Assembly (NCBI GenBank): GCA_030706405.1
Contig: JAUZOO010000003.1
Location: forward strand, 186,001 to 250,000
Direction: 5' to 3'
DNA length: 64,000 bases
Source: Bacteroidota bacterium
Lineage (GTDB): Bacteria; Bacteroidota; Bacteroidia; Bacteroidales; JAAUTT01
Part shown: one piece after another, positions 49,524 to 64,000 of the stretch
Layout: each line of letters begins with the position of its first letter
Numbering within the stretch: the first letter of the stretch is position 1
The notes under the pieces: model-generated
Databases searched by the model: none
What the model was told of the DNA's origin: nothing
The model's input: only the letters and a program-made list of their open reading frames with translations
Translations under genes and position numbers: made by a program

Positions 49524-50354
49524 TTAAACCCTTACTCTTACAGTTTCAAGTTGTAGTATTTTCGATTCTTCGGATTCTTGCAAATAATTATTTATCGTTT
49601 GAAGTTCGTAGGCATACCCAAATGTCATGGTTATGGAACGATAAATATCCCTGCTGATTTGTTTCAGCTGATTTTGATTAGCTATAAGCACCTGAATCGG
49701 GTCAATATTCATGATATTAATCTTTCCTTCCGATTCTTTTAATAAACGAAGATTATCATCTATAATCCGTTTAAAATTTTCATACGATTGCGAAGCCGTT
49801 GATAGTCGGCAACCAACAACGCCCACAACCTTGCCAGACTTTACATCAATAAGCGGACTGCCCGAGTTGCCTTGCTTTATCAGTGTATCAAACTGAATAT
49901 ACCGGTCTCCTTTCGGTGACTTTACAAACGACGAGATGATACCGCTTTTAATACTAAGGTTATCCTGATCAAGATGATAACCTATCACAGCCACCTGTTG
50001 TCCAATAAAGAGCCCTGCTCCCGATTCGACTTCCAATGAAGGTATCATAGACATATCCAAGTCCTCAATGTCAATTAAAGCATACCCTTCATTTTCAAAC
50101 TGAGTTAGCCGGTTTATCCGTGCCTCAAATTCAACAAACGACATTCGAAACTCATAGTTTAAAGAATAACCGTCGGACTTCAAAAAACAAAAAACAACCT
50201 CGTTGCATTTCATTACCTTATAAATAGCCTCGTCGGTAACCAGATAATGTTTAACCTTAAAACCTGTAAGGGAAACCAATCTAATTCCATTATCGCTGTA
50301 AAAGTTGATAGAACAAACACCAGCGTACAAATCTTTCCAAAGCTTCTGATACAT
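49524..50354 (-). CDS. Trypsin-like (S1/HtrA-fold) protein lacking apparent catalytic His and Asp
   Basis: A 276-residue cytoplasmic protein with no signal peptide. The trypsin-like fold is shown by LTGFKVKHYLVTDEAI (30-44), FIGQQVAVIGYHLD, LSIKSGIISSF and QGNSGSPLIDVKSGKVVGVVG (from 161). The Ser is in GNSGSP. Where active members have VTNxHV, this has VTDEAI, and where they have DYAIL or DLALL, it has GYALI (90-94), so His and Asp both seem to be lost. The C-terminal 75 residues are helical and of no known family. It stands alone between two glycan or transport units and has its own terminator. A regulatory or binding role is more likely than proteolysis, unless other residues substitute. 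Confidence 0.7.
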   Translation of the reverse strand: MYQKLWKDLYAGVCSINFYSDNGIRLVSLTGFKVKHYLVTDEAIYKVMKCNEVVFCFLKSDGYSLNYEFRMSFVEFEARINRLTQFENEGYALIDIEDLDMSMIPSLEVESGAGLFIGQQVAVIGYHLDQDNLSIKSGIISSFVKSPKGDRYIQFDTLIKQGNSGSPLIDVKSGKVVGVVGCRLSTASQSYENFKRIIDDNLRLLKESEGKINIMNIDPIQVLIANQNQLKQISRDIYRSITMTFGYAYELQTINNYLQESEESKILQLETVRVRV

Positions 50355-50544
50355 CAGTTCTGTATTAATTTATTAATATTCAAACAACTGCACCACAAAA
50401 CACAGTTTGTTTAAAAACTATGCTTTCCATGTGCAATATCATACATTAATACTTTGATTCATAAAAAAGTACCCCTCAAATAACTTCTTTTTTGACCAAA
50501 TCAGGGATTTGTACACCAACAACAGGTTTGAGACGACAAAACAG

Positions 50545-52173
50545 CTAATTTATTTTACGTACAGTTTTAAGTTTTAACAAATTCAGAGGATTTCCGGCAA
50601 AACCACGGATATTTTTAGGGTAAAAACGCACAACCATGTCGTAATACAGCGGAATTATGACTCCGTCCTCAAAAATTTTGTGATTCATATCCCGATATAG
50701 CAGAATTCGCTTATTAGCATCATCTTCGGAAAGAGCAGACTCATACATATGGTCAAACGATGCATCTGTAAAATGGGTATAATTGGGCCCCTGCGGACTA
50801 TGGTTAGGACTGTAAAACAACGACAGGTAGTTCTCCGCATCAGGATAATCGGCAATCCACGATGCCCGGAAAAGCTGTACCTTCGAATTGGCTACCATCT
50901 CGCGAAAAGTAGCGCCAGTGCTCACCTCTATTTTCAGGCGTATGCCAATCTGCGATAAATCGTGCTGGATAAACTCGCACAAATCGAGATAATCGGAAGT
51001 GGTGGTAAGCGTAATTTCCGGAAGATTCTTGCCATCAGGGAAACCGGCCTCAGCCAACAACCGCCTCGACAAATCCGGATTATAGCGATACCCCTCGCCT
51101 TGCTCAATATAACCCGGCAGACCTTTGGGGATGATGCCCCAGTAGGCCGGAGTGCCCAGATTATTACGCAGATATTTTAGCATTTTGGCGCGGTCAAACC
51201 CGGAATTTATCGCTAACCGCACCTTTCTATTCAACAACGGGTTGCCGGACATCTTTTGCGGGTCAATCATACACCCAAGGTATTCGGTATTCAGATAAGG
51301 CTGAACTGCCATAGCAAAACGCCTGGCATACTTAGGATTGAGCTTTCCACCACGGGTAAGCAGTTCGTTACGGTAAGCGGTATGAACGCCCGATAGAAAA
51401 TCGATATTTCCTTTTACAAATTCCAAGAATTCTGACTGCTTATCACTAATAAAGGTAATGGCAATAGCATCGAGGTAAGGGAGTCTGCGACCTGCGGAGT
51501 CCTTTTCAAAATAATGCGGATTCTTTACCAGTACCAGTTTCTCGCCTTCTCGCCAGGTTTTAAGCATAAAGGGACCTGTTCCGACTGGGTGGCTTCGAAA
51601 ATCATCGCCATAATATTCAACAACCTCGCGAGGTACAACAAAACAATAAGGAGTGGTGAGCAATCCGGCAAACGCGGCAAACCGTTTCCGAAGCTTTATC
51701 TGTAATACGGAATCGTTAAGAGCTATAATCCCTGAAGAATCCGGCCGGTCGACGTTATTAAAAACCCAGGCGCCAGGCGAAGCCGTTTTAGAATCGACAA
51801 TACGCCTAAAGCTGTAAACAAAGTCGGGAGCTACGACCTTCCGGCCTTTACCTTGCAGAAATACTGAGTTATCGTGGAAATAAACATCATTGCGGAGATA
51901 AAAAGTATAGGTAAGTCCGTCGGCAGAAACTTCCCATCGTTTGGCCACCGAAGGCCGGAGCCGGAGCGAATCGTCCATTTCGAGCAGACCATTATATAGC
52001 TGGTTATCGGGCCATATCAGGGTTTGCGATTTAGCAAATGCAGGATCGAGGGTGGAGATGCCTTTGGTTTCGTTGTACCGGAACACATTTTTTGAAGTAC
52101 TGGTTTTACCATCGGGTTGGCAGGCATTTATCGCGATAAGAACAGCAAAAAATAAAAAGCGCAAAACGTTCAT
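50545..52173 (-). CDS. ABC transporter substrate-binding lipoprotein, family 5 (peptide-type)
   Basis: A 542-residue SBP family 5 lipoprotein (OppA/DppA type). Signal MNVLRFLFFAVLIAINAC with lipobox INAC. The family block RYNETKGISTLDPAFAKSQ and the SBP_bac_5 motif LRPSVAKRWEVSADGLTYTF, then LRNDVYFHDN, are near the N-terminus. The cleft sequences HPVGTGPFMLKTWREGEKLVLVKNPHYF follow. No permease or ATPase genes are beside it, so it may pair with a transporter elsewhere or act in sensing or cell-wall peptide recycling. The promoter at 52195-52226 matches the Bacteroides consensus well. Confidence 0.9.
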   Translation of the reverse strand: MNVLRFLFFAVLIAINACQPDGKTSTSKNVFRYNETKGISTLDPAFAKSQTLIWPDNQLYNGLLEMDDSLRLRPSVAKRWEVSADGLTYTFYLRNDVYFHDNSVFLQGKGRKVVAPDFVYSFRRIVDSKTASPGAWVFNNVDRPDSSGIIALNDSVLQIKLRKRFAAFAGLLTTPYCFVVPREVVEYYGDDFRSHPVGTGPFMLKTWREGEKLVLVKNPHYFEKDSAGRRLPYLDAIAITFISDKQSEFLEFVKGNIDFLSGVHTAYRNELLTRGGKLNPKYARRFAMAVQPYLNTEYLGCMIDPQKMSGNPLLNRKVRLAINSGFDRAKMLKYLRNNLGTPAYWGIIPKGLPGYIEQGEGYRYNPDLSRRLLAEAGFPDGKNLPEITLTTTSDYLDLCEFIQHDLSQIGIRLKIEVSTGATFREMVANSKVQLFRASWIADYPDAENYLSLFYSPNHSPQGPNYTHFTDASFDHMYESALSEDDANKRILLYRDMNHKIFEDGVIIPLYYDMVVRFYPKNIRGFAGNPLNLLKLKTVRKIN

Positions 52174-52194
52174 AACTTACAGATATATTGAAGG

Positions 52195-52226
52195 CAAATG
52201 TACCGAGTACTTAATACTATGACAAA
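52195..52226 (-). promoter_or_regulatory. Bacteroides-type promoter of peptide-binding lipoprotein gene
   Basis: On the minus strand TTTG, 20 nt, then TACATTTG, a match to both boxes of the TTTG/TAnnTTTG consensus, ending 21 nt before the start codon. Confidence 0.65.
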
Positions 52227-52290
52227 AAATATTTTGCGAATTGTTCATAAGTTTGCCCGATACGTTTTTAGCATTAAAGCTCATTTATCT

Positions 52291-52298
52291 TACTTTTG
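52291..52298 (+). promoter_or_regulatory. Candidate -7 box for divIC
   Basis: TACTTTTG, matching TAnnTTTG, 24 nt before the GTG start codon of the divIC-like gene. The -33 region (TTTTTA) is only a partial match. Confidence 0.45.
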
Positions 52299-52322
52299 CC
52301 AAAGTAACTAAATTACATCGTT

Positions 52323-52634
52323 GTGAAATTCACCCGGCTTAAACAATTTTGGTTTTGGATATTACCACTCCTGAAGAACAAATACACCCTTACATTAATT
52401 GTATTTCTGGGTTGGATAGCCTTTTTCGACCAGAACAACCTGGTTGACCGTGTACAAAACCTCAACCAGTACCACCAGCTCGAAAAAGATAAGATGTATT
52501 ACATCCAAAAAATTAAAGACGACTCAACCAAACTTCACGAGCTGGAAACCGACAGAAACAACCTCGAAAAGTTTGCCCGCGAACAATACCTGATGAAAAA
52601 GAAAAACGAGGATATCTTTATTATTGCGGATTAA
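52323..52634 (+). CDS. FtsB/DivIC-type septum formation protein
   Basis: A 103-residue bitopic protein with a cytoplasmic basic N-terminus, one membrane segment (about 20-36, YTLTLIVFLGWIAFFDQ) and a periplasmic coiled coil (about 45-85), ending in the DivIC motif EKFAREQYLMKKKNEDIFII. FtsB/DivIC joins FtsL and FtsQ in the division complex. The start is GTG at 52323; no in-frame ATG precedes the membrane segment. The last 14 bp overlap the end of the convergent glycosyltransferase gene, so both reading frames are fixed there. Confidence 0.92.
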   Translation: MKFTRLKQFWFWILPLLKNKYTLTLIVFLGWIAFFDQNNLVDRVQNLNQYHQLEKDKMYYIQKIKDDSTKLHELETDRNNLEKFAREQYLMKKKNEDIFIIAD

Positions 52635-53895
52635 GGCCAGACACAAGTTTTCTGTCGATTTTGCGATATACCTCCAACAGCCCAAACTCATTGTTGCAAG
52701 TTGTTTCTATGCCAAGCTCGTTCAGTAATTTCAGAGCTTCGCCAGTAACATCGGCCTTTTCGAAGTATCCGTCGTGGCCAAAATTCAAATACTTGATTGC
52801 CTTAAAAGCATTAAACCACCTGTAAAAACGTTCGCGGTAAGTTTTGAGCGTGGCACAGTTGGCCGATACTGATGCCAATTCGTCATAAAAATCATTTTCC
52901 AACAAAAAAATTCTTAATGCTCGAGGAAGCTTTTCCACCACGGCGATTACGGTTTCCTTTTCAGCTTTAAAACAACCGTCAATCTCTTCCAAAAATCCCT
53001 TCAAATCCTTATAAGCCTCAAAACAATACGTTTCGAGGGTATCGCCTTTATGCCATTTGTTCATCGAGGCCCCGGTGCCAAAAGGTACGCGGTCGGACTG
53101 TCGCGGCGAAGGTATTACACGTGTTGTGTTAATCTCGCTAAAATTTCCCAACGAAATAATCTTCTGCAAAAAATAAAAATCCTCTCCGGCCTGCCGACGG
53201 TTCATTCCTCCCTGCTTTACATAAGCATCCATGCGTACAGCAAAGCTGGAACCTACGGTATGCCATGCATGCGGATGCCCCGTGTAGCGTAAAGCAAGAT
53301 TCAGATAACGCAAATGAAGCTCATAGCGGGCAATTCCAGCGTAAACTTCGGCACTAAAACCATCTCCGGAAAGCGGATGCTCAAAATATACCGAAGCCCC
53401 GGGCGACTTGGGCAAACGCTTAAAATGTCGGTCAATTTCTACAAGGTAATTGGCATCGCAAAGGGAGTCGGCATCGAAACCGGCAATTATCCCGTTCGTT
53501 TTCCCGACAAGGTTAAGACGGTAAGCAGCCTCGTCCATCCCAATTTTACGGGCAAAGCCTACACCAGCAAACTTAGCCGGCAAACCGGGACTATACACCA
53601 GGTGAAACTGAAACCGTGAATCGTGATGTTCCGCTACCCATTCCGATGCTTCTTTAAGGGTTCGCAGGTTTTGTTCGGTAGCCAATGCATCGCAACCTTC
53701 CGGAGCATTAACAACCACGATTACCTCAACGGCACACGAAGGCCGTTCACATTCCCATAGTGATTGTAACGACCGTATCAGGTCGGGTTCCTTATAACTG
53801 GGGATAGCCGCACATAAGCCCAGTTCCGGATGAGGCCGGGCAGCAATGTATGGCTCGAAATTGTGCTTTGCCAGATAAGCTTCGGTGAAATTCAT
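52621..53895 (-). CDS. Family 2 glycosyltransferase-like protein
   Basis: A 424-residue protein with a GT-A fold. The nucleotide-sugar region opens LGLCAAIPSYKEPDLIRSLQ, the DxD metal site is GFDADSLCD (about residue 140), and the later catalytic block is RQAGEDFYFLQKIISLG. No membrane segment or signal is visible, so it works in the cytoplasm. The C-terminal 150 residues are helical with no known domain. The donor and acceptor cannot be assigned. It is not in an obvious glycan cluster: its neighbours are a division gene and an OmpH-like chaperone. The gene ends by overlapping divIC in the opposite direction. Confidence 0.8.
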   Translation of the reverse strand: MNFTEAYLAKHNFEPYIAARPHPELGLCAAIPSYKEPDLIRSLQSLWECERPSCAVEVIVVVNAPEGCDALATEQNLRTLKEASEWVAEHHDSRFQFHLVYSPGLPAKFAGVGFARKIGMDEAAYRLNLVGKTNGIIAGFDADSLCDANYLVEIDRHFKRLPKSPGASVYFEHPLSGDGFSAEVYAGIARYELHLRYLNLALRYTGHPHAWHTVGSSFAVRMDAYVKQGGMNRRQAGEDFYFLQKIISLGNFSEINTTRVIPSPRQSDRVPFGTGASMNKWHKGDTLETYCFEAYKDLKGFLEEIDGCFKAEKETVIAVVEKLPRALRIFLLENDFYDELASVSANCATLKTYRERFYRWFNAFKAIKYLNFGHDGYFEKADVTGEALKLLNELGIETTCNNEFGLLEVYRKIDRKLVSGLNPQ

Positions 53896-53912
53896 GAGGT
53901 ATGTTTAAAAGA

Positions 53913-53940
53913 AAAGCCCACAGAATAATCTATGGGCTTT
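53913..53940 (-). terminator. Terminator after OmpH-like gene
   Basis: Stem AAAGCCCA / TGGGCTTT (53913-53920, 53933-53940); on the minus strand it is followed by TTTTCTTTT. It separates the OmpH-like gene from the glycosyltransferase gene. Confidence 0.8.
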
Positions 53941-53961
53941 GCAATCGGCAGTTATGCGATA

Positions 53962-54576
53962 TTATTTTTTTTCTTTCGAAACGGATTTGTACTTTTCGTT
54001 CAATCCCTTTACTACTTCAGCCGTAATATCCAGCGAATTATCGGCATATAAAAGATTACTTCCGAAAGAGTTTCCGAGAATGAACTCGTATTTTTTGCCT
54101 TTATTGTATTCTTTCAGATATTCCATGATGCTGTTAAGTACCTGACGGTTCATCACCTGTTCTTCTTCGGCAAGCTGCATCTGGTACTGATCGCGGGTTT
54201 GTATTAATTTCTGCTGTTCGGCACCCAATTGTTGTTCCATTTCGGCAGCATTGGCGCGGGTTATAAGTCCCTTCTGTACCTTATTCTGATAATCTTGTAC
54301 ACTATTCTGATACGTCTTCGATTTAGCGTTCATCTCGTACCCAAGTTGTTTTTGCTTAACGGTAAGTTTTTCGCGCAGATCAACAAACATACTATATTGG
54401 TGAATAACTGTATCGATATTTACATACGCTATTTTTCCGGGGACAGCTTTTTCGGTAGAGGCAGCTTTGACAGGCTCCTTATCCGATGCGCATTTGTTTC
54501 CGGTAAAATGTAAAATGTATAAAACAACAATGGCAATGGCTAAAACAATTTCAACAATTAGGCTAGTTCTTTTCAT
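53962..54576 (-). CDS. Skp/OmpH-family periplasmic protein
   Basis: A 204-residue OmpH/Skp-type protein. A single N-terminal hydrophobic segment (about 7-25, IVEIVLAIAIVVLYILHF) has no clear signal-peptidase site, so it may stay anchored. The conserved start of the mature family, IAYVNIDTVIHQY, is followed by long helical hairpin sequence (about 80-150) rich in Q, K and E, as in the tentacles of Skp that hold unfolded outer-membrane proteins. It ends with IMEYLKEYNKGKKYEFILG, a family hallmark. A consensus promoter lies at 54602-54632. Confidence 0.88.
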   Translation of the reverse strand: MKRTSLIVEIVLAIAIVVLYILHFTGNKCASDKEPVKAASTEKAVPGKIAYVNIDTVIHQYSMFVDLREKLTVKQKQLGYEMNAKSKTYQNSVQDYQNKVQKGLITRANAAEMEQQLGAEQQKLIQTRDQYQMQLAEEEQVMNRQVLNSIMEYLKEYNKGKKYEFILGNSFGSNLLYADNSLDITAEVVKGLNEKYKSVSKEKK

Positions 54577-54601
54577 AATGAGTAATTAAAATTATCGACA
54601 A

Positions 54602-54632
54602 CAAATATAGCGTTTGATACCTTATTTCCAAA
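54602..54632 (-). promoter_or_regulatory. Bacteroides-type promoter of OmpH-like gene
   Basis: On the minus strand TTTG, exactly 19 nt, then TATATTTG, a full match to both consensus boxes. The -7 box ends 25 nt before the start codon. Confidence 0.75.
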
Positions 54633-54765
54633 CTTGAAGATAATAACCTTATTTGCAAAATTTACTGATATAATGTTCAGACTAAACTTAACATTGTAAG
54701 AGCCTGGGAACAGTTAACCAGAATCGCAGGAGGAAATTAACAGGCTTGTAAAATGCTCAAAAAAA

Positions 54766-54960
54766 TCAGGCAAGGCTTACACAGTGTTGTAATATGCCGC
54801 CTGACTTTCTGGGAACGAATCCCACATGTGGGAAGTCGTGCCTGACTTTTTTATTGACAATCCACCACGGTGGAAACCTTGCCTGACTTTTTTTTAGATG
54901 CTCCACCATCGTGGAGGTCCTGCCTGATTTTTTTGACACATTAAAATAAAGAAGTCAGGC
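54766..54960. repeat. Array of palindromes with exact 41-bp period
   Basis: GCCTGAC/T occurs at 54799, 54840, 54881 and 54922, exactly 41 bp apart, each followed by a T-rich stretch. Twenty-one bp into each of the first three units is a different palindrome: TCCCACATGTGGGA (54820-54833), TCCACC-AC-GGTGGA (54861-54874) and CTCCAC-CATC-GTGGAG (54901-54916). Their centres are also 41 bp apart. A further dyad TTACA-N6-TGTAA (54777-54792) sits one unit upstream, offset by one base. Inverted copies of the heptamer (TCAGGC at 54766, GTCAGGC at 54954) close both ends. The symmetry is kept while the sequence changes. Confidence 0.8.
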
Positions 54961-54990
54961 TACAATCTTAACGAAGATGTAACCTGACTT
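54952..54990 (-). terminator. Terminator of BtuB-like receptor gene
   Basis: Stem AAGTCAGG / CCTGACTT (54952-54959, 54983-54990) with inner pairs TAC/GTA and ATCTT/AAGAT around an AACG loop; CTTCTTTATTTT follows on the minus strand. It shares its arm sequence with the repeat array beside it. Confidence 0.75.
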
Positions 54991-55013
54991 ATATTATGTA
55001 CTCATTTTACGTT

Positions 55014-57056
55014 TTATTTCCAACCAATATTTAGTTCAACACCGGCTTTAAACCAGCGTCCGGGCTGGGCAATATTGCCAATGTCGATATAATCGGCATT
55101 AAAGATGTTCGACGCCTGAGCAAACACCTTTAACCGTTTGGTTTTATAATATACGCTTCCGTCGAACAGACAAAACGGGGCATAAGCGGTACTGACGCTT
55201 GTTTTGTCTACGACATTATATTTTCCATACGTTCCGTTGCGGTCTTGCCAGGTGAAATACCAGGTAGCGCCAATATTTCCCCATATACCGTGGTCGATGC
55301 TGGCCACAAATTTATGCTTAAGAAAATCGAGAACATAGTTCGAATCAAAATCGGCATTGGCTTTATCAACATAAGTAAACGAATACGATACCGAAATCTG
55401 GTTGATGATAAACGACGGATCAATAATTTCACGAGGCTTAATCCTGGCCGAAACCTCTACCCCATCGGTATTCAGTTTAGAGATATTCTGACTCGTCCAT
55501 ACCGTTGTTCCGGAATACCGTACCCAGTCTATCATATTAGTTCCCCATCGATGAAAGTAGGAAAGGTTTCCATCAATACCCTTCCTTTCTAACTTAATGC
55601 CACCTTCAACCAACCAGGCTTTCTCCGGTTTAAGATTGGGGTTTCCCTGAGTGGCTCCTTTTAACACGTAATAAAGATCGGTAAACGTTGGCAGGCGGAA
55701 GGAGCGGTTTGCCGAAGCGTAAACCCTGATTGGAGCCGCAACCTGGTAGCTGAGATCCAAACCGGGATAAAATTCCAGTCCGTTGAGTTTACTGTTGTGG
55801 TCGGCCATTACACCGGCAGCCGCCGCAAACCGGCCTAAAACGATGTTTTGTTCAAGATGCGCACTCCAGTCTTCGCGCTGGTCCTTTTTATTGTACCGGA
55901 TAACATCCTCGCCCGGAATCTTCTTGGTGTCAGTTATCGGGGTTCCGAGGTTGGTGCTATAGATGACTTCCTTTCGGTACTCAATACCCAGCGAAGTTTT
56001 GCCCAGAGCGCTGTAATAGGCTGTCCGAAGCCCGCCACCATAAGCATCAGTGCGGTGATAGTTCTGGTAAAGGGATGGATTCGTATAATCTAATATATAG
56101 TGATCATAATTTCGGCGCCAGTATGTAAACGGGTTAAGTTTTACGATACTTCCAACTTCGGCCCCAAGGCTGCCAAAATAAGTTTGCGTGCTTTCGTGCT
56201 GATTAAGATATTGTGGCCCATAGAAACTATTGGCCCCGTAATTCTTGTCGGTATATCCCAGTTGAAGGGCGATGTTACCATCCTTCACATAGGCTTTCCC
56301 GTGATAGTAGATATTTTTAATATCGTAGTCGGTATTATGGATGTACCCATCGGACTGGCTCCGCGACACTTCCACAAAGTTATGAACGCTCTCGCTATGC
56401 TGGTTTATAGCCACCACGCTTCGCTGCAAACCAAAATCGCCACCTGTTTGCGACACTTTAACATAATTGTTCGGATTTAATCCGGTAACAAAATTTATTG
56501 CCCCGCTAAAAGCTCCCGAGCCATAAACACGCGAAGCCGGACCTTTAAGCACTTCAATACGATCGATGCTTTCGAGACCTACAGGAAGATTAAGATGATA
56601 GTGACCGGTTTGAGGGTCGTTGAAATTGATTCCGTTAAGGAGGATTAGGGTTTGATCGGACGATCCGCCCTGAATTGAGACATCGGCTTGAACACCGTTT
56701 GCGCCACGCTGGCGAATATCGACTTGCGGAAGATAACGTAATAAATCGTTTGGACTTTGGACGGGAGCTCGATCTACTTCGCTACGCGAAATTACCGACA
56801 CCACGCGGGCAATCTGCGAATTCACCTTCGGCGCCTGCTGTCCTGTAACCTCTACCTCTTCGAGCGTATCCTTCTTTACAATAACTGATGTTTCACCTTG
56901 ACCGTTAGCCGTCTGAGTCGGGTTTGACAATGAATAGACTGCACTGAGTACGCCAATCTTCATCACCATCGTAAGGCTGTTAAACACTGCGAACGGTTTC
57001 CGTGTCCATTGCCGGAATGCCCCCGTTCGTTTTCGAACAAAATTTTGTTGTTTCAT
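55014..57056 (-). CDS. TonB-dependent receptor, BtuB/CirA-like
   Basis: A 680-residue outer-membrane receptor. An unusual extended N-terminus of about 50 residues (FRQWTRKPFAVFNSLTMVMK then a hydrophobic stretch) acts as signal. The plug follows (VEVTGQQAPKVNSQIARVVS, IQGGSSDQTLILLNGINFND, VYGSGAFSGAINFVTG) and a 22-strand barrel ends FKAGVELNIGWK. There is no carboxypeptidase-like domain, so it is not a SusC protein; the size and plug resemble vitamin B12 and siderophore receptors. Its upstream region is too short for a cobalamin riboswitch if the -7 box at 57084-57091 is used. Ligand unproven. Confidence 0.82.
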   Translation of the reverse strand: MKQQNFVRKRTGAFRQWTRKPFAVFNSLTMVMKIGVLSAVYSLSNPTQTANGQGETSVIVKKDTLEEVEVTGQQAPKVNSQIARVVSVISRSEVDRAPVQSPNDLLRYLPQVDIRQRGANGVQADVSIQGGSSDQTLILLNGINFNDPQTGHYHLNLPVGLESIDRIEVLKGPASRVYGSGAFSGAINFVTGLNPNNYVKVSQTGGDFGLQRSVVAINQHSESVHNFVEVSRSQSDGYIHNTDYDIKNIYYHGKAYVKDGNIALQLGYTDKNYGANSFYGPQYLNQHESTQTYFGSLGAEVGSIVKLNPFTYWRRNYDHYILDYTNPSLYQNYHRTDAYGGGLRTAYYSALGKTSLGIEYRKEVIYSTNLGTPITDTKKIPGEDVIRYNKKDQREDWSAHLEQNIVLGRFAAAAGVMADHNSKLNGLEFYPGLDLSYQVAAPIRVYASANRSFRLPTFTDLYYVLKGATQGNPNLKPEKAWLVEGGIKLERKGIDGNLSYFHRWGTNMIDWVRYSGTTVWTSQNISKLNTDGVEVSARIKPREIIDPSFIINQISVSYSFTYVDKANADFDSNYVLDFLKHKFVASIDHGIWGNIGATWYFTWQDRNGTYGKYNVVDKTSVSTAYAPFCLFDGSVYYKTKRLKVFAQASNIFNADYIDIGNIAQPGRWFKAGVELNIGWK

Positions 57057-57083
57057 AAATAATACTTTACGTTAATAAAAACG

Positions 57084-57091
57084 CAAAGGTA
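57084..57091 (-). promoter_or_regulatory. Candidate -7 box for BtuB-like receptor
   Basis: TACCTTTG on the minus strand, 27 nt before the start codon. No matching -33 TTTG is seen. Confidence 0.4.
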
Positions 57092-57240
57092 AACAAAATG
57101 CGCTATGGGAAGCTATTAGCAACGATCCGGCATTAACGATACCTAATAACTGCAATGTATTTCAATTAAAAATTGGTTCTGAAAAATAGAAAAAGGCTAG
57201 AGAAGTATTTTACATAACTGGCTACACCACAAACTTCATA

Positions 57241-58332
57241 TCAGTTTAAATATTTTTCAAAAACGCCGTCGTAAGTTTTGGCAATGGATTCCCAATTGTA
57301 TTTGAGCTTAAGCAATTCAAAGGCTTTATCCATAAAAGCCTGCATTTTTTTCGGATTTTGAATAGCGAAGGTTATTTTCTCTTTCAAATCGCTGGCATCA
57401 TTGGTTTTAAAAAACAAAACTTCGTCGTCAGAGAATATGACTTTATTAGGGGCAATATCACTGCAAATCAAAGGCGTTTTAACGTAAACAACTTCCAAAA
57501 GCATAATGCTCATATTTTCATAATCGGAAGGAAACACAAACAATCGCGCATTCTTTACATAATTTAGAAGCTGCGCTTTGTCGCGTATCAATGAAATAAA
57601 AGTAACATCAAGGCCTTCGGCCAGATTCAATAATTTTTCTTTATAAGACGGCATTTGTTCCAAATCGCCTATTACAACAACTTTTCCGGTATAATTCATC
57701 AATTTAAGAGCCTCCAAAAGCACATGGCATCCTTTTAACGGAATAATCCGCCCGGCGGCAAATAAAATGTAATCCTTATACGGAATATCTGAATTGGATA
57801 CCGGCTGATTCAGATTAATGCCGTTAGGGATATATTCTACATTCGCATTTCCTAAACCCCGATAAATTTCGTAAAGAGGAAAAGCTACAACGGTGACTTT
57901 GTTGGACAATTTCAGCATCACCCGTTCGTTGATATTAAAAAACAGATTCACATACCATGGCCACTTTCCCATTAAATGAGGGCGTCCATGTGATGTTACT
58001 ATTACTTTGTATTTAAGCCGCAAAAATGGAATGATAAAAGCCCCGTCCAGATGGTGCAGATGAATTAGATCGTACCTGGCCACAAATAGGCAATGGAGCA
58101 TCGACTTTAGATAGTAGAAAAAAATATTCAACTTCTTTAAAGGAAACCGCTTAAAAACAATTTGAAGATAGTCTTCACTTAAAATTCCAACGTTAGCATG
58201 ACTTTCGACAGCATAAACCGTAAAATCATACTTCTCTTTAAGTTGTTTAATGATATTTTCGCCAACCGTAGCTGCACCTCCGAAAGCCGGTAATCCTTTA
58301 AGGCCTATAACTGCAATTTTTTTTCGCTCCAT
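57241..58332 (-). CDS. GT-B glycosyltransferase (family 4 type)
   Basis: A 363-residue glycosyltransferase. The ATG at 58332 (MERKKIAVIGLKGLPAFGGA) opens the first Rossmann fold; the frame also extends to 58374, overlapping the upstream ligase gene. The donor-binding C-domain has FAAGRIIPLKGCHVLLEALK and the E-x7-E motif SDYENMSIMLLEVVYV. This is the GT4 pattern used for building surface polysaccharides. No membrane segments, so it works on the cytoplasmic face. It is the last gene in the 63.8-57.2 kb minus-strand cluster in this window. Confidence 0.88.
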   Translation of the reverse strand: MERKKIAVIGLKGLPAFGGAATVGENIIKQLKEKYDFTVYAVESHANVGILSEDYLQIVFKRFPLKKLNIFFYYLKSMLHCLFVARYDLIHLHHLDGAFIIPFLRLKYKVIVTSHGRPHLMGKWPWYVNLFFNINERVMLKLSNKVTVVAFPLYEIYRGLGNANVEYIPNGINLNQPVSNSDIPYKDYILFAAGRIIPLKGCHVLLEALKLMNYTGKVVVIGDLEQMPSYKEKLLNLAEGLDVTFISLIRDKAQLLNYVKNARLFVFPSDYENMSIMLLEVVYVKTPLICSDIAPNKVIFSDDEVLFFKTNDASDLKEKITFAIQNPKKMQAFMDKAFELLKLKYNWESIAKTYDGVFEKYLN

Positions 58333-58339
58333 TGTAAGA

Positions 58340-59794
58340 TTACATAGAAGATTTAACCTTTTTCCCGGTGGCACTAATTCTTAAGGCACTATCAAATTCA
58401 ATAAAAGAAGGTACTTTAAATTTTGCCAGATGAGAATTACAATGTTCAAGTATATCCTGTGCTGTAACAACTGTGTCATCCGCATTATTAAGAACTATCG
58501 AAGCTTTTAACGCCTCACCAAGCAATTCGTCTTCTACTGCTGTTACAGTACAATCTACCACACTAGGCAACATTAAAATCACTTCTTCAATTTCACGAGG
58601 ACTAACCCTGCGCCCTCCTACTTTTATAATTTCTTTTTTGCGAGACAGTAAATAAATAAATCCGTCTTCGTCAATCGTGGCTATATCGCCAGTGTAAAGC
58701 CATCCGTTTCGTATCGTTTCTGCTGTAAGCTGAGGATCTTTAAAATAGCCCTTCATGATATTTTCTCCATTGGCAATAATTTCGCCTTCTTCACCTGGCT
58801 TAACAGCCCCGGCATCTGTTTCTACTTTCAGCTCAACACCCGGAATCCCTTTACCTATTGATCCCAGCTTATCCGTCAACCGGTCGGGAGGAAGGTATGA
58901 CAACCTTGCCGTAGCTTCAGTCTGTCCATACATTACATAAAATTTGATTTGCGGGAAAGCCTCAGTGAATTCACGAATAAATACTGGCGATAGTTTTCCC
59001 CCAGCCTGGGTTACATAACGCAAATTGGGAAACTGTGAAGATACAAACGACCGCGTCTTTCGAAGTAATAATTGGTAATGACTTGGAACTCCGGCAAAAC
59101 CAGTACAATTATACTGGTTCAGATCACGAATTATCCCGCCAAGGAAAATAAACGAATTATTAAAAACTATTGAGCCGCCCACTTTTAAATGTGTGTGCAA
59201 TAACGATAAACCATAACAATAATAAAATGGCAATACCACCAGCATGGTATCGTTTGAGGTTAATTCCAGATATTGAATGATTGAAGTTGTATTGGCAATT
59301 AAATTTTTATGACTTATCACTACTCCCTTAGGCCAACCGGTAGATCCTGATGTAAAAATTATTTCGGCAGTGTTTTCTGAGTCAATAACTTGTTCGTTGA
59401 ATTCCTCTCGGTTTTCAGATATCTTATCCAGAGAGTCCTCATCAATAAGTTGAGTAAGCCGCTCCGATTTTACTGCAATATGATTGCCAATAAACGCAAC
59501 ATCGGCTTCGCACAACGAAACGATATAATCAAAATTTCCTTGTTCTATAGCCGGATTCAAAGGGACTACCACATTCCCAGATTTTATTATTCCCAAATAT
59601 GCAGTGATAAAAAAAAGGCTATTGTGGCTGACAAGAATAACGTTCTGTCCTTCCCCGATCTCCTTTTGCAGGTACGAGGCTAAATTCAATGCTCTGGAAT
59701 AGATACTGCTAAAGGATACCTGCTCTTTAGGGCCAAGTAAAAAATTTTTAGTCAGCTCTTTGGCGTCTGAAAAAAGGAAATCGAAGAAATTCAT
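58340..59794 (-). CDS. AMP-dependent ligase (ANL superfamily)
   Basis: A 484-residue adenylate-forming enzyme that activates a carboxylic acid and can load it onto CoA or a carrier protein. Motifs: IIFTSGSTGWPKGVVIS (A3), YVMYGQTEATARL (A5), GWLYTGDIATIDEDGF (A7) and the C-domain RKKEIIKVGGRRVSPREIEE, with the late Lys in ISATGKKVKSS. It lies 17 bp from the NadE-like gene and in the same group as an acyl carrier protein, so loading a small acid onto that carrier is the simplest idea. The acid is unknown. Confidence 0.9.
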   Translation of the reverse strand: MNFFDFLFSDAKELTKNFLLGPKEQVSFSSIYSRALNLASYLQKEIGEGQNVILVSHNSLFFITAYLGIIKSGNVVVPLNPAIEQGNFDYIVSLCEADVAFIGNHIAVKSERLTQLIDEDSLDKISENREEFNEQVIDSENTAEIIFTSGSTGWPKGVVISHKNLIANTTSIIQYLELTSNDTMLVVLPFYYCYGLSLLHTHLKVGGSIVFNNSFIFLGGIIRDLNQYNCTGFAGVPSHYQLLLRKTRSFVSSQFPNLRYVTQAGGKLSPVFIREFTEAFPQIKFYVMYGQTEATARLSYLPPDRLTDKLGSIGKGIPGVELKVETDAGAVKPGEEGEIIANGENIMKGYFKDPQLTAETIRNGWLYTGDIATIDEDGFIYLLSRKKEIIKVGGRRVSPREIEEVILMLPSVVDCTVTAVEDELLGEALKASIVLNNADDTVVTAQDILEHCNSHLAKFKVPSFIEFDSALRISATGKKVKSSM

Positions 59795-59811
59795 AATAAA
59801 CTATTTTATGG

Positions 59812-60780
59812 TCAAAAATGAATCGGTCCCCGCCTTAAATAGTCCGTTGTTTGTTGTTTGCGATGGAAACTCAAAAAAATCTTTTCAACCTCATCTGCCG
59901 ACATATCCATAACCGGAGCAACTTCGGTGGCAGAGATGTTATTTTCAAAGGCATACCACATTAAATCCATCTGCTCAAAGGGTAACTGATAGAAAAATTC
60001 TTCCTGGGTCTGCTCTGCCGAATAGGTATCGGTTGTTGGAGTCCGTTTTATTATTTCTTCGGGAACCCCCAAATGTTTGGCCAACTGATAAACCTGGGTT
60101 TTATAAAAATTTCCTATGGGCATCAAATCCGCTCCACCATCGCCATATTTAACAAAAAAGCCCTGTTCAACTTCGTGCTTATTAGGTGTACCAACAACGG
60201 CATAATGCAACCGTTCGGCATGGTAATAAAGCATGGACATCCGGGATCTCTGCTTAAAATTAGACGCAGCTACAATTTGTGCATATTGATTTACAGGCAA
60301 TATTTTACTTTCTTCGGATCCGTCTGGTTTTACTATTGTCAGGTAAAAGACTGGTGGCAAACCCGTTTTAAGACCGCTTTGCCGGATTCCAATTTTCATT
60401 TTATACGTTTTGGGGTCATATTCTGGAAACACAACAGATACAGCCTCGTCGCGCCGGCGATAGCAACCAAATCCCTCAAGGGCTCCGGTTATATCTTCGG
60501 TAATAGTTTTTACGCCAAATGTATCGGCTAATTTTTGAGCCAACAGGGCACTTTCTGAGCTGGAATCACGTTCAGGCAACATTAATCCGAGAACTTTATC
60601 TGGTCCCAGGGCAGTTGCGGCCAGAGCCAGTGTAACCGAAGAATCGACCCCTCCACTAATCCCGACAACTGCACCACGACGATGCAAAACAGAGAATATC
60701 TGCGACCTTATTTCATTTTGAATGTTTTCGCAAACCGAAGCAACATTATCAAACACTAAAATATCCTTATGTAATTGCAT
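59812..60780 (-). CDS. NAD synthase-like ATP pyrophosphatase (NadE family)
   Basis: A 322-residue ammonia-dependent NAD synthase family protein without the N-terminal glutaminase domain. The PP-loop is VGISGGVDSSVTLALAAT, followed by NFKQRSRMSMLYYHAERLHY, VVGTPNKHEVEQGFFVKYGD and MPIGNFYKTQVYQLAKHLGV, all NadE hallmarks. Compared with the roughly 275-residue bacterial enzyme it carries an insertion (about 108-160, RRRDEAVSVVFPEYDPKTYK onward). Housekeeping nadE is not usually placed inside a glycan cluster. It may therefore be a paralogue that amidates another adenylated acid, with ammonia from AsnB next door. Ordinary NAD synthesis remains possible. Confidence 0.8.
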   Translation of the reverse strand: MQLHKDILVFDNVASVCENIQNEIRSQIFSVLHRRGAVVGISGGVDSSVTLALAATALGPDKVLGLMLPERDSSSESALLAQKLADTFGVKTITEDITGALEGFGCYRRRDEAVSVVFPEYDPKTYKMKIGIRQSGLKTGLPPVFYLTIVKPDGSEESKILPVNQYAQIVAASNFKQRSRMSMLYYHAERLHYAVVGTPNKHEVEQGFFVKYGDGGADLMPIGNFYKTQVYQLAKHLGVPEEIIKRTPTTDTYSAEQTQEEFFYQLPFEQMDLMWYAFENNISATEVAPVMDMSADEVEKIFLSFHRKQQTTDYLRRGPIHF

Positions 60781-60796
60781 ACTTTTAAGAATTTAA

Positions 60797-62779
60797 TTAT
60801 ACTGATAATTTATTGACTACCCTTGATTTTAAAAGATTCAGGCCTGATACTGGTTTAAAAGACCTGTCGACATACATAGCATAGAAAAGTTGAGTTGAAA
60901 TAATTGCCGTCAGGGCTATAGTATCATTCTCCGAAATATTTTTCCCCTCTTTAATTTTCTGAACTAGCCGGGATACCATATGAAAATCAAACACATCATA
61001 TTCTTTAATTTTAGCTTCGCTCAAATAATACTTCACATATTCCGGCTGATTATTAGAAATAAATACCGATGAGATTGGAGCCCGATATGCCTGTTTGTTT
61101 CTTTTGACAACACTATCTGGCAGCTTCTGATTCATCATTTTTTTTAACAAATACTTCTCGTTTAAGCCCCGCATCTTGAATGAAGGAGGAAGCTGTGAAG
61201 CATATTCTATTAAACGGTAATCCAGAAAGGGATACCGTCCTTCGATTGAATTTGCCATTCCCATGCGGTCGCCCTGAGAAGAAAGTAAATAATTAGACAT
61301 CAACAACTTGGTTTCAACCCATTGAGCTCTGGACAACTCGTCCCAGGTTTCGTATCCTGAAGGCAATATTTTTTCAACTTCATCAATTGGGTTGTAGGCC
61401 AAAAGTTGTTGTTTCACCGTTTGTGAAAAATAATTTCGAATTAATGAACCATTATTCCATCTCAAGAGAAACGCATAAAATGGATTTTCCGTTTCTGCCA
61501 ATTTCAATCCGAAGATAAATTTCAAAACCTGTGGGCTCAAATTGTTCATTTGAGATACATAAGGGTACAGTTTTTTAAGCAACAAAGGCCGATATTTTGA
61601 GTCGGGATACTTTGACCAGAAATAACGTATCTGAGCCTCTTTAAATATATCATACCCTGCCAATATTTCATCTGCTCCCTCGCCTGTCATTACAACCTTT
61701 ATATTGTTTTCCCTGACTTTTCGTGACAACAAAAACATAGGGGCCGCCGCTGTTCTAAAAAGTGGAGACTCTGAATACCAAATAACTTCCGGAAATGCAT
61801 CTGCTATATCAGAGGACGTGCATTTAAAACTTTGGTGACTGGTATGTAAATGCTGAGAAACTTGTTGTTGAAAATGAGTCTCGTCGTAATCTTTATCAGA
61901 AAAACCAATGGAAAAGGTCTGCAGATTTTGTGGAGAAATTTGCTTTATACAATAGGTTATGGCGCTAGAATCGAGACCTCCACTCAAATAAGCCGCAACC
62001 GGCACGTCAGAGCGCATGCGTAAGCTCACAGAGTCCTTTAATAGAGAATAAAATTTATCAGCAGCTTCATCCTCCGACGAAGTGACGTACTCGCCTGTTT
62101 TGGAGAACGATAACTCCCAATATTTTTTTACAGTTGTCCTTTTATCCTTAACTATCATATAATGACCGGGTTCAAGCTCTCCTATATTTTTCAAAGGACT
62201 ACTTCCCGGGAGCAGGGTCCAAAACGTAAAAAGTTGAGAAACTCCCATGGTGTATAATTCGGGAGTATAGGCATTATATTCTAGTATGGATTTAATTTCA
62301 GAAGCAAAGATAAATACCTCATCAATAAAGGTATAAAACAGAGGTCGAATGCCTACCCTGTCCCGGGCAATAAACAGTTCTTCCGTAATAGTATTCCAAA
62401 CAGCAAAAACAAACTGTCCATTTAATTTGGACAAGCAACTTGTGCCATACTCCTCATAAAGATGAAGTAAAACTTCAGTATCGCTTGTAGTTTTAAACTT
62501 ATGGCCTAATGCAAGTAATTCGGATTTAAGTTCAATGTAATTAAAAATCTCTCCGTTAAAAATAATCCACAAGCTACCATCCTGATTACTCAGAGGTTGT
62601 TGTCCGGTAGCAAGGTCAATAATACTGAGCCGCACATTTCCAAAGCACAAGCCTTTGTCATAAAAGATACCGCTCTCATCGGGGCCCCTGTGCTGTATCG
62701 CAGACAGCATACGATTGACCAACGGTACATAACCTGCACCCTCGGTTTGCCATTGCAAAATTCCAGCTACACCACACAA
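60797..62779 (-). CDS. asnB: Glutamine-hydrolysing asparagine synthase-like amidotransferase
   Basis: A 660-residue AsnB-family enzyme. The N-terminal nucleophile is Cys2 (MCGVAGILQ), with RLSIIDLATGQQPLSNQDGS and NGEIFNY of the class II glutaminase domain (about 1-200). The synthase domain has the PP-loop VAAYLSGGLDSSAITY and VVMTGEGADEILAGYDIF. The protein is about 100 residues longer than E. coli AsnB, as in many paralogues found in capsule and antibiotic clusters that amidate non-aspartate substrates. It overlaps nothing and is 1 bp from the acyl carrier gene, so they are surely co-transcribed. True substrate unknown. Confidence 0.9.
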   Translation of the reverse strand: MCGVAGILQWQTEGAGYVPLVNRMLSAIQHRGPDESGIFYDKGLCFGNVRLSIIDLATGQQPLSNQDGSLWIIFNGEIFNYIELKSELLALGHKFKTTSDTEVLLHLYEEYGTSCLSKLNGQFVFAVWNTITEELFIARDRVGIRPLFYTFIDEVFIFASEIKSILEYNAYTPELYTMGVSQLFTFWTLLPGSSPLKNIGELEPGHYMIVKDKRTTVKKYWELSFSKTGEYVTSSEDEAADKFYSLLKDSVSLRMRSDVPVAAYLSGGLDSSAITYCIKQISPQNLQTFSIGFSDKDYDETHFQQQVSQHLHTSHQSFKCTSSDIADAFPEVIWYSESPLFRTAAAPMFLLSRKVRENNIKVVMTGEGADEILAGYDIFKEAQIRYFWSKYPDSKYRPLLLKKLYPYVSQMNNLSPQVLKFIFGLKLAETENPFYAFLLRWNNGSLIRNYFSQTVKQQLLAYNPIDEVEKILPSGYETWDELSRAQWVETKLLMSNYLLSSQGDRMGMANSIEGRYPFLDYRLIEYASQLPPSFKMRGLNEKYLLKKMMNQKLPDSVVKRNKQAYRAPISSVFISNNQPEYVKYYLSEAKIKEYDVFDFHMVSRLVQKIKEGKNISENDTIALTAIISTQLFYAMYVDRSFKPVSGLNLLKSRVVNKLSV

Positions 62780-62780
62780 G

Positions 62781-63056
62781 TTAGTTAGATTTAATGGTTA
62801 ACTTCTTTTGAACAAAATCTGTAATTGCATTTACAGTTTCAAAATTTTCTTCAACAAGATCGGTATCCGCCGTTTGAATACTAAACTTTTCTTCCAGAAA
62901 AGCGATTAAAGAAACAAAGCCCATTGAATCAAAATATCCTTCTCGAAAAAGAAAAGTTGTTTCATCAATTTTTTCTTTATCTCCAAAAGAACTATCAATT
63001 ACAAAATTGAGTACGGAGCTTTTTATACCTGCAGAATCATAGTTAGTATCACTCAT
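62781..63056 (-). CDS. Acyl carrier protein
   Basis: A 91-residue acidic carrier protein. The phosphopantetheine attachment Ser is residue 44 in GYFDSMGFVSLIAFLEEKF, matching the DSxxxxxL pattern. Differences from housekeeping AcpP (DSLDTVEL) and its position 1 bp from asnB indicate a dedicated carrier for an intermediate made by the AMP-ligase of the same group. A phosphopantetheinyl transferase is not in the window. Confidence 0.9.
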   Translation of the reverse strand: MSDTNYDSAGIKSSVLNFVIDSSFGDKEKIDETTFLFREGYFDSMGFVSLIAFLEEKFSIQTADTDLVEENFETVNAITDFVQKKLTIKSN

Positions 63057-63190
63057 ATCTTAACTTTTAGATGTTTTATGAAATTAACAAAATTTGTAAT
63101 CATTTGTCTTTTTTGGGGGTAACATTTTGACCAATTATCAGTAATTATAGATAAACAACAATTCTCTAAAATTCCTCATCGAAGATTCTG

Positions 63191-63751
63191 TTATTTTCCT
63201 CTTGACTTATTGTTAATAAGTTTTGTTATTGCATCCTTCTTTTCCTGAAAAGTGAGGTTTAAGCCATCCATTTTATAGGGACTAAATTCTACTAACCTTT
63301 TATAAATACTGGTTTTCATAATAACTTTGGCAGGATTTCCAATAGCGATTGAATTATCTGGAATAACCCCACGAACAACAGAACCGGCCCCAATTACACA
63401 ATTATTGCCAATGGTGGAGTTTGGCAATATTATACACCCTACCCCAATAAATGTATTATTCCCAATTTTTATTTTCCCAAATAAATCAATCTCAGGCTGT
63501 TCATGCCTAAAAATCCAAACACCTCCATCGTGGGTAATTAATTCGGTTCGACTAGCAATGGCAACATGATCGCCAATTTCGATCAGGTAAGGTTCGGTAG
63601 AATATTTAATATTAGAAATGCGACAGTTCTCACCTATTTTCACTCCGTGTTTTCGAAGCAAATGAACACGATAATATTTCGGGACAACTGCAAATAACAG
63701 CTTATCTAATTGCTTTTTATAAAAGGTGAATATCTCTTGTATTTTTCTCAT
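63191..63751 (-). CDS. Left-handed beta-helix acyltransferase (sugar O-acetyltransferase type)
   Basis: A 186-residue hexapeptide-repeat transferase. The ATG at 63751 (MRKIQEIFTFYKKQLDKL) is chosen over the frame start at 63778. Hexapeptide repeats are visible: IKIGNNTFIGVGCIILPNST, IGNNCVIGAGSVV, and the end GNPAKVIMKTS, with the His of HDGGVWIFRHE likely catalytic. These enzymes move acetyl groups from acetyl-CoA to sugars. Context points to modification of a surface glycan. About 135 bp with nothing notable separate it from the acp gene. Confidence 0.85.
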   Translation of the reverse strand: MRKIQEIFTFYKKQLDKLLFAVVPKYYRVHLLRKHGVKIGENCRISNIKYSTEPYLIEIGDHVAIASRTELITHDGGVWIFRHEQPEIDLFGKIKIGNNTFIGVGCIILPNSTIGNNCVIGAGSVVRGVIPDNSIAIGNPAKVIMKTSIYKRLVEFSPYKMDGLNLTFQEKKDAITKLINNKSRGK

Positions 63752-63805
63752 CGTTTTACATTTTATTAATAAGGGCAAGCCCTAATCTTTTCATATTACT
63801 ATTTC

Positions 63806-64000
63806 TACCAACCTGTCAAAGATGTGTTATCTGCTTTATCCTGAACTACATCAACAATGCGTTTGCAAAAAAATGGAGCCACCTTCCCTCCAAAAGCGAC
63901 GGAGGGATGAGAATTGCCGGGAGCTGAGGCATACTCATTTTTAAGATATAGTCCTCCTTCTGTTTCCAACTCAAAGAAATCCCATATAAAAATATTATCA
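63806..64000 (-). CDS. C-terminus of a probable SGNH/GDSL-type protein, partial at window edge
   Basis: Reading from the right edge on the minus strand gives about 64 residues before a TAG at 63806, starting DNIFIWDFFELETEGGLYLK and ending NTSLTGW. The part SAPGNSHPSVAFGGKVAPFF has the form of the C-terminal catalytic block of SGNH hydrolases, in which an Asp (here Asn) and His sit as DxxHP. The start and the Ser block are outside the window. It lies directly upstream of the acetyltransferase gene, so it may be an esterase or transferase of the same glycan. The assignment rests on one motif. Confidence 0.5.

Follow-up and report, generated by a model that had tools for sequence, protein, structure and literature searches.

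In type III toxin–antitoxin loci a gene is immediately preceded by an array of tandem repeats. On the F plasmid, ParB binds the inverted repeats of sopC, according to the available text of PMC6238139; Tandem Repeats Finder (TRF) resolves sopC into 10.7 copies of a 43-bp period with one dyad per unit. Porphyromonas gingivalis harbours 41-nt (464/PgRS) and 23-nt (BrickBuilt) tandem repeats, termed miniature inverted-repeat transposable elements (MITEs) or MITE-like in the part of PMC4596501 available to us, where all BrickBuilt copies are described as intergenic, with a leader, a tail and IS5-family-like terminal inverted repeats, and the terminal repeats of PgRS as nearly the same as these. Here we describe an array of dyad-symmetric units repeated every 41 bp in a stretch of 64,000 nucleotides (the window) from a Bacteroidota bacterium of the order Bacteroidales (assembly GCA_030706405.1, contig JAUZOO010000003.1, positions 186,001 to 250,000). 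The array belongs to a dispersed family in its genome and looks like an orphan copy of a class of arrays that is strongly associated with genes of the DUF6261 family (PF19775).

Phased dyad arrays in the window and its genome

The heads of the window array (GCCTGAC/T) start at 54799, 54840, 54881 and 54922, and its dyads TCCCACATGTGGGA, TCCACCACGGTGGA and TCCACCATCGTGGA are centred at 54826.5, 54867.5 and 54908.5; both series are spaced by exactly 41 bp, as the original prediction, made from the letters of this stretch, had claimed for each of these positions. The dyads had also been called self-complementary: their arms are symmetric, but two of the three are imperfect palindromes with 6-base arms flanking 2-base and 4-base centres. 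An offset dyad ahead of the first (TTACACAGTGTTGTAA, centre 54784.5, 42 bp earlier) is real, as are the inverted heads that close both ends on the minus strand (54760-54771 and 54949-54960), the latter with one mismatch. Positions 54601-55010 reach a top ungapped self-score of 39, whereas none of 300 mononucleotide shuffles exceeded 14. Across lags of 15-130 the top self-match of the window is the lag-41 match at 54799-54934, the array being the strongest self-similarity in the 64 kb, and TRF ranks it top of 18 rows (period 41, score 108).

Nine arrays of this family occur in the source genome. They share a head near GCCTGACTTTTT and are built from a head near GCCTGACTTTTTAGAAG followed by a dyad centred about 29 bases on, whose sequence varies from array to array (TCCCn..nGGGA, ATTTCCC..GGGAAAT, TCCACC..GGTGGA, TACACCCTGTA). 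The exact 13-mer has seven occurrences, across four arrays, and its reversed control none. A covariance model built from 29 units and run on the source genome at an expect (E) value of 1 or better returned 43 units, comprising the nine arrays and two single matches (C6:32586 and the weak C15:434437); its strong matches are mostly training units, and the C19 array is newly found. Arrays C1, C15b, C19 and C21 hold the dyad spacing at 40-43 bp even where their heads have decayed, and spacings of 38 to 43.5 stem from one C6c unit and the last C16 unit, which the script mis-centred. The helical phasing first suggested for the window array is supported, the period being 40-43 in arrays of unlike sequence; at that spacing successive dyad sites face the same side of the DNA, four turns apart.

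The suggestion of an expanding non-coding element proved partly right in that the family is dispersed in the source genome, the C16 and window arrays sharing 86% identity along 119 bp; the window array also matches the DUF6261-linked C6b array at 78% over 60 bp (E 1.6e-7). No common leader, tail or terminal inverted repeat was found beyond the arrays of ten source-genome regions compared with 500-bp flanks (blastn, word size 7, E 0.01), where the only flank matches were C6b/C6d (another repeat) and C1/C6b (paralogous genes). In 442 kb of the source genome, consisting of the window and 20 stretches of which ten were chosen for arrays or for their location on the array-rich contig C6, all repeats of period 40-42 and score at least 40 belong to the window family.

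Two other repeats were seen on contig C6. A 169-bp block in two copies 93% identical (C6:31741-31909 and C6:32586-32754) starts with an array head and carries the palindromes CCGTAGGC and GTCCCGTACGGGAC; it is another dispersed palindromic repeat and joins array ends. Three neighbouring tandem arrays of period 23, as in P. gingivalis BrickBuilt, lie at C6:89173-89382. Terminators noticed by eye beside some arrays were not used, a scan of two regions having found 0 in each.

The dyads of the source genome also covary, in keeping with the compensatory change read from the window alone. Watson–Crick pairs fill 205 of 258 cells over all 43 dyads (the weak-dyad arrays C6a and C6b enter neither this count nor the next), whereas shuffling the right arms among the 43 gives a mean of 134.3 (standard deviation 7.2) and at most 159 in 5000 shuffles. 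With one centre moved (C6c) and five poorly centred dyads dropped, the 38 better-centred dyads give 187 of 228 against a shuffle maximum of 156. The observed pairing is inflated because centres were picked for best pairing; scored off-phase with equal freedom, the mean falls from 4.95 to 2.7-3.5 of 6 pairs, with 4.18 one period on. Covariation shows that both dyad arms changed together and leaves the cause aside, since related units can beat shuffles without selection.

Association with DUF6261 genes

Two DUF6261 paralogs of the source genome are preceded by arrays, one by C1 at a distance of 112 bp and the other by C6b at 64 bp, and tblastn with the two encoded proteins also gave matches beside the arrays of loci L298 and L308. 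Every one of the seven array genomes tested carries PF19775 (44, 33, 9, 6, 5, 2 and 1 copies), and none of 14 control genomes does; the frequency of PF19775 is 14/149 among order relatives and 4/119 among class genomes, the source genome counted. With the source genome excluded, DUF6261 occurs in six of six genomes found by their arrays against 13 of 148 order relatives and three of 118 class genomes.

The array genomes yielded 30 DUF6261 loci, six of which were dropped for a short upstream region (<300 bp). In 20 of the remaining 24, TRF placed an array with a period of 40-43, 84 or 123-126 no more than 290 bp ahead of the gene, with which a fixed rule agrees; in L397 the start codon was shifted to behind the array. 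A lag test gave a best upstream lag of 40-43 in 22 of the 24, the exceptions L387 and L403 having lags of 29 and 98 with scores one over the shuffles. All five DUF6261 genes of the source genome show upstream array periodicity.

A fairer test rests on 30 loci from 14 genomes that were found by the gene alone and not by arrays, these being the best-scoring loci and not every gene. Significance was set as a self-score above the best of 20 shuffles, and downstream regions were held to the same thresholds. Upstream regions were significant at 25 of the 30 loci, with lags of 41 (11 loci), 42 (9), 43 (3), 83 and 124 and with units that differ; downstream controls were significant in 5 of 29 (lags 22, 33, 72, 81 and 116). 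Eleven of the 14 genomes hold at least one positive locus, and G063, G085 and G530 hold none. A strict TRF rule, which asks for an array no more than 300 bp ahead of the gene, picks out 20 of the 30 loci, compared with 0/247 genes in 20 random class genomes, 1/191 in congeners and 5/258 in a sample of the source genome. Defined as a 40-43 bp period no more than 450 bp upstream of a PF19775 gene, the DUF6261-array module proposed here is present at 25/30 fair-test and 22/24 array-genome loci. In the sampled part of G488 (Tannerellaceae bacterium Pc512_bin25) the TRF rule is positive for three of three DUF6261 genes, a fourth gene not being called as an open reading frame (ORF).

Dyad arms in the 25 fair-test arrays average 5.48 against 4.27 in shuffled sequence, and five of the 25 reach 7 (2.5% of shuffles). 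The gap between array and ATG has a median of 88 bp and a minimum of 17 over 47 gene-linked arrays. The association of DUF6261 genes with arrays is strong; the window array has no adjacent DUF6261 gene, hence its likeness to an orphan copy.

Distribution beyond the source genome

As a Bacteroidota-wide motif the GCCTGA head had to be rejected: among 396 class genomes it was found only in the source genome and in one presumed chance match (G183), which makes the head lineage-specific; the reversed pattern also had one match among the 396. Covariance-model matches in relatives (single matches in 5 of 59 others, E 0.003-0.007) proved on inspection not to be arrays. The search of the genome and its relatives advised at the outset thus returned the nine arrays at home, while in four congeners no array of the window family was found, nor a DUF6261 gene. 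The original prediction held that the array would be a chance or decaying duplication if related genomes lacked periodic copies and the dyads failed to covary; the congeners showed no such arrays, though they also have no DUF6261 gene, and the dyads do covary.

Two heads 39-43 bp apart occur in 88 stretches in a scan of named genome contigs, a large share of which, by eye and with no reliable count, are insertion sequence-like ends at contig ends; viral contigs gave two matches to the two-head pattern, both two-copy only. As a separate observation, two GCCTGA-TTTT motifs 40 bp apart (L129, L139, L153, L172, L178 and others), the outer one followed by a GTCCATTACACC-like sequence, are often found at contig ends in Bacteroidota metagenome-assembled genomes (MAGs) and resemble an insertion sequence end with tandem binding sites.

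Several of the 88 stretches are true arrays from other Bacteroidota that keep a similar dyad phase; examples come from a Prevotella (RUG647), from a Bacteroidetes MAG (Ja1-D2) and from two Tannerellaceae MAGs. One of the genomes so found, G488, has 21 head pairs on nine contigs with differing palindromes (reversed pattern 0). Its 314-kb sample, made up of 16 contigs chosen by number plus four stretches from contigs known for their arrays, contains 37 arrays outside ORFs of 100 codons, with largely unlike unit sequences and periods of 40-42 (19 arrays), 81-84 (5), 121-126 (4), 21 (3), 23 (3), 18, 69 and 278. Including those that overlap ORFs, 48 arrays have a period of 39-43, and a dyad arm of at least 6 is found in 54% of their consensus units against 7% after shuffling. 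Intergenic repeat periods in G491 are 22, 40, 40, 41, 41 and 42 (52 kb); random class genomes gave 17, 18, 21 (3), 22, 23, 24, 28, 36, 42, 46 and 71 (348 kb) and congeners 16, 17, 17, 18, 21, 32, 42 and 112 (284 kb). A 29-kb sample of G489 yielded no repeats, and in G490 (44 kb) there were none outside ORFs.

In G488 the shared blocks GGCATTGTAGTGTTACATTTGTAAAG and GGCCTTTACAAAAAAATTATTT break up the arrays of L288, L290, L291 and partly L287 (C50, C95, C124, C41) and resemble a leader or joint of a composite element. A presumed orphan copy, G488:C3, was not used; it may be the same locus as the gene-linked C30 array, both lying at contig ends. An empty-site comparison in congeners was given up as well: the OmpH orthologs of G001-G003 have other neighbours, and so offer no clean pair of filled and empty sites.

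The array and its surroundings in the window

The features of the array and the flanking genes are collected in Table 1. The inverted unit ahead of unit 1 has a weak covariance-model match (C15:240732-240771, minus strand, E 0.57). Beyond the array itself (lags 41 and 82), the only self-match of the window scoring at least 17 is a weak self-similarity at 62800-62904 (lag 42, score 19).

Table 1. Positions of array elements and neighbouring genes, counted from the first letter of the window
Feature	Position	Strand	Remark
Unit 1: head GCCTGACTTTCTGG, dyad TCCCACATGTGGGA at 54820-54833	54799..54839	+	model match C15:240799-240839, training unit
Unit 2: head GCCTGACTTTTTTA, dyad TCCACCACGGTGGA at 54861-54874	54840..54880	+	model match, training unit
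Unit 3: head GCCTGACTTTTTTT, dyad TCCACCATCGTGGA at 54902-54915	54881..54921	+	model match, training unit
Fourth head GCCTGATTTTTTT, no dyad after it	54922..54934	+	
Inverted unit ahead of unit 1: head 54760-54771, dyad TTACACAGTGTTGTAA at 54777-54792	54757..54792	-	
Inverted head past the array	54949..54960	-	one mismatch
Decayed head ACCTGACTT	54982..54990	+	seen in the sequence
TonB-dependent receptor gene (PF00593, PF07715)	55014..57056	-	stop 19 bp from array outer edge 54995
OmpH-like gene (PF03938)	53962..54576	-	start 181 bp from array outer edge 54757

A proposed DNA platform and its rivals

A geometry that stays fixed while the sequence varies, together with the symmetry of the dyads and the tie to a single gene family, points to a DNA platform. 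The reading that we tentatively favour has DUF6261, or a partner of it, bind the dyads cooperatively in the form of DNA. The arrays would then be intergenic platforms of tandem 40-43 bp units with one or two dyad-symmetric sites each, whose home position would lie 17-332 bp upstream of a DUF6261 gene; gene-free copies such as the window array would occupy other intergenic sites in DUF6261-carrying genomes. At home an array could control its own DUF6261 gene or nucleate a complex on it, and at orphan sites arrays might act as extra docking sites. A cooperative protein-binding array was among the functions originally proposed, and the phasing and compensatory dyads fit it; protein binding, DUF6261 as the binder and the effect of binding are our inference. 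The protein may read the spacing and symmetry of the array. A further-reaching idea, which we consider possible without expecting it to hold, is that DUF6261 would be the founder of a group of geometry-reading DNA-array proteins with their own diverging arrays, seeding orphans as a chromosomal address or partition-like system.

DUF6261 proteins have about 250 residues and appear helical by sequence and in a low-quality model. Twenty-eight members are 11-26% identical to the first, with a single column conserved above 90% (arginine 184 of L163). Five members had no NCBIfam match above cut-off, no PADLOC model and one weak PHROG of unknown function. Within a genome, paralogs that are otherwise very different mostly have a brief C-terminal tag in common (RPGIL in G202, loci L410, L412 and L414; DPDEHPPAGE-like or NPEDLNPPAAGE in G488 and G491; DEPDQ-like in G489), and period-45 DNA repeats inside the genes L389, L395 and L399 encode Pro/Thr-rich C-terminal tails of variable length.

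Several observations weigh against the platform reading. Two source-genome DUF6261 proteins match only PF19775 in Pfam (E 1e-3), with no recognised DNA-binding domain; in a PDB profile search most matches were helical bundles, either designed or of the cytochrome b562 type, the best being a designed Tet4 variant (E 1.6e-6); and the single-sequence AlphaFold model of the L163 protein is unusable (predicted local distance difference test score 41). Five of the 30 fair-test loci (L411, L413, L425, L426 and L433) lack significant periodicity, and the strict TRF rule misses ten of the 30. Upstream arrays also precede 24 of 193 non-DUF6261 genes in the G488 sample, where arrays outnumber DUF6261 genes by far (48 in 314 kb against 44 genes per 3.1 Mb). 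Some gene-linked arrays have weak dyads, the best arm being 3 in L421 and L412. Finally, although the four array pairs with the closest resemblance come from similar proteins, DUF6261 proteins about 70% identical can have arrays that share few or no 9-mers (six for L394/L397, two for L408/L430, none for L408/L437). Such turnover argues against simple sequence-specific recognition of a cognate array: either it is the geometry that is recognised, or something other than DUF6261 binds, or a mutational process is at work.

The main rival, close behind the DNA platform, is mobile or REP-like spread, which we regard as conceivable if on the unlikely side. DUF6261 and its array would be a selfish master element and orphan arrays its non-autonomous copies. 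DUF6261 itself or a transposase of the host would spread these copies, much as with repetitive extragenic palindromes (REPs) and their associated tyrosine transposases (RAYTs) or with minisatellite-bearing MITEs. Dispersal of the family, the likeness of the C16 and window arrays and the abundance of DUF6261 paralogs (44 in G488, 33 in G491) all suit this account, as do the P. gingivalis repeats already classed as MITEs or MITE-like and an orphan array of G488 that shares a palindrome with a gene-linked one 14 kb off (L315 13184-13606, L316 7399-7716; gene C143:47981). Against it, the nine source-genome arrays have no common flanks, leader, tail or terminal inverted repeats outside them, DUF6261 shows no conserved set of catalytic residues, its one column above 90% being an arginine, and copying fails to explain an equal period in unlike units.

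Neutral minisatellites appear unlikely. Slippage or recombination would favour whole helical turns, hairpin-templated repair would keep the palindromes, and the DUF6261 leader would simply tolerate them. Intergenic repeats of 21-23 and 40-42 bp do occur in other Bacteroidota samples, palindromes in G488 and G491 are mosaics of arms, and unit sequence turns over between similar DUF6261 proteins, all of which a mutational process would accommodate; it is harder put to account for the 20 of 30 DUF6261 genes positive under the TRF rule against none of 247 random class genes, for a period that survives where decay hides the arrays from TRF (L386 and L401, for example) and for the many other periods among intergenic repeats of random class genomes.

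Structured RNA, as a tandem-hairpin transcript, a leader or an RNA antitoxin of the type III kind, seems improbable. The short gap to the ATG in many loci would suit it, and roughly 40-nt tandem repeats beside a gene recall the toxI-toxN layout. An RNA fold on one strand should give more G.U than A.C mismatches there. Across 47 arrays (22 array-genome and 25 fair-test arrays, thus chosen for having an array), gene-sense hairpins hold 70 G.U, 68 A.C and 136 other mismatches, with 17 arrays leaning each way, and the sense strand has the lower folding energy in 18 of 47; a hairpin RNA in gene sense accordingly gains no support, while an RNA fold not resting on the dyads would escape this count. 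On the head strand of the source-genome arrays G.U exceeds A.C by 22 to 6 (27 to 7 with all 43 dyads), which would fit RNA; the units are related, so this is not an independent count, and dyads of G488 and G491 (G.U 31, A.C 35) lack the excess. The RNA from the receptor transcript that was proposed for the window array itself is not supported, the heads of the array lying on the plus strand and both flanking genes, for the receptor and the OmpH-like protein, on the minus. Rfam has no family in window positions 50000-64000, five DUF6261 proteins have no PADLOC match and the two scanned match no Pfam toxin family.

The original prediction excluded a CRISPR (clustered regularly interspaced short palindromic repeats) array, and the window array indeed has no constant 25-40 bp repeat; no search for cas genes was made.

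It is unusual for arrays to preserve their period and symmetry through changes of sequence. If a protein reads their geometry, this would be a new mode of DNA recognition; if none does, they would make a clean case of a helix-locked mutational process. DUF6261, a family of unknown function, gains a specific candidate DNA partner. A literature search for DUF6261 leads to a paper on Streptococcus oralis. No paper was found to connect repeats of this kind with DUF6261, or with a fixed helical period, in a search that left most subscription journals outside its scope, and the available text of PMC3733652, PMC6006769, PMC4596501 and PMC5771137 makes no such link.

Comparison with known systems

The arrays share with type III toxin–antitoxin loci a position upstream of a gene and differ from them in having no gene-sense RNA signal in the mismatch count, no toxin family match (no ToxN-like endoribonuclease in two DUF6261 proteins, which match only PF19775 at E 1e-3) and many orphan arrays. 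Like REPs and bacterial interspersed mosaic elements with RAYTs, they are dispersed intergenic palindromes with copies adjoining a gene family; the partner is DUF6261 rather than a Y1 HUH transposase, and the units, inspected by eye, show no GTAG/CGTC tag. No Y1 HUH transposase was found among 17 proteins near the window array and other arrays, with no genome search for PF01797.

The layout is closer to sopC, the parS of a type Ia ParABS system: both are tandem direct repeats with unit dyads, and sopC adjoins the gene of its binding protein. Unlike sopC, the arrays are chromosomal, many per genome and variable in sequence, and they lie upstream of DUF6261 rather than downstream of parB. No parA or parB adjoins them, the neighbours being the TonB receptor and OmpH genes in the window and PF19775 at home, with farther genes and genomes not searched. 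By its layout the array may work like a centromere or an operator array, although on the tests made it is no member of ParABS.

The nearest published relatives found, on the part of PMC4596501 available to us, are the P. gingivalis repeats 464/PgRS and BrickBuilt, likewise dispersed tandem repeats of 41 or 23 nt in a Bacteroidota genome. That text names neither a partner protein nor a fixed helical period for them, and they differ from the source-genome arrays, the only ones so compared, in the leader, tail and terminal inverted repeats that the latter lack. With DUF6261, the 41-nt repeats of P. gingivalis gain a possible owner.
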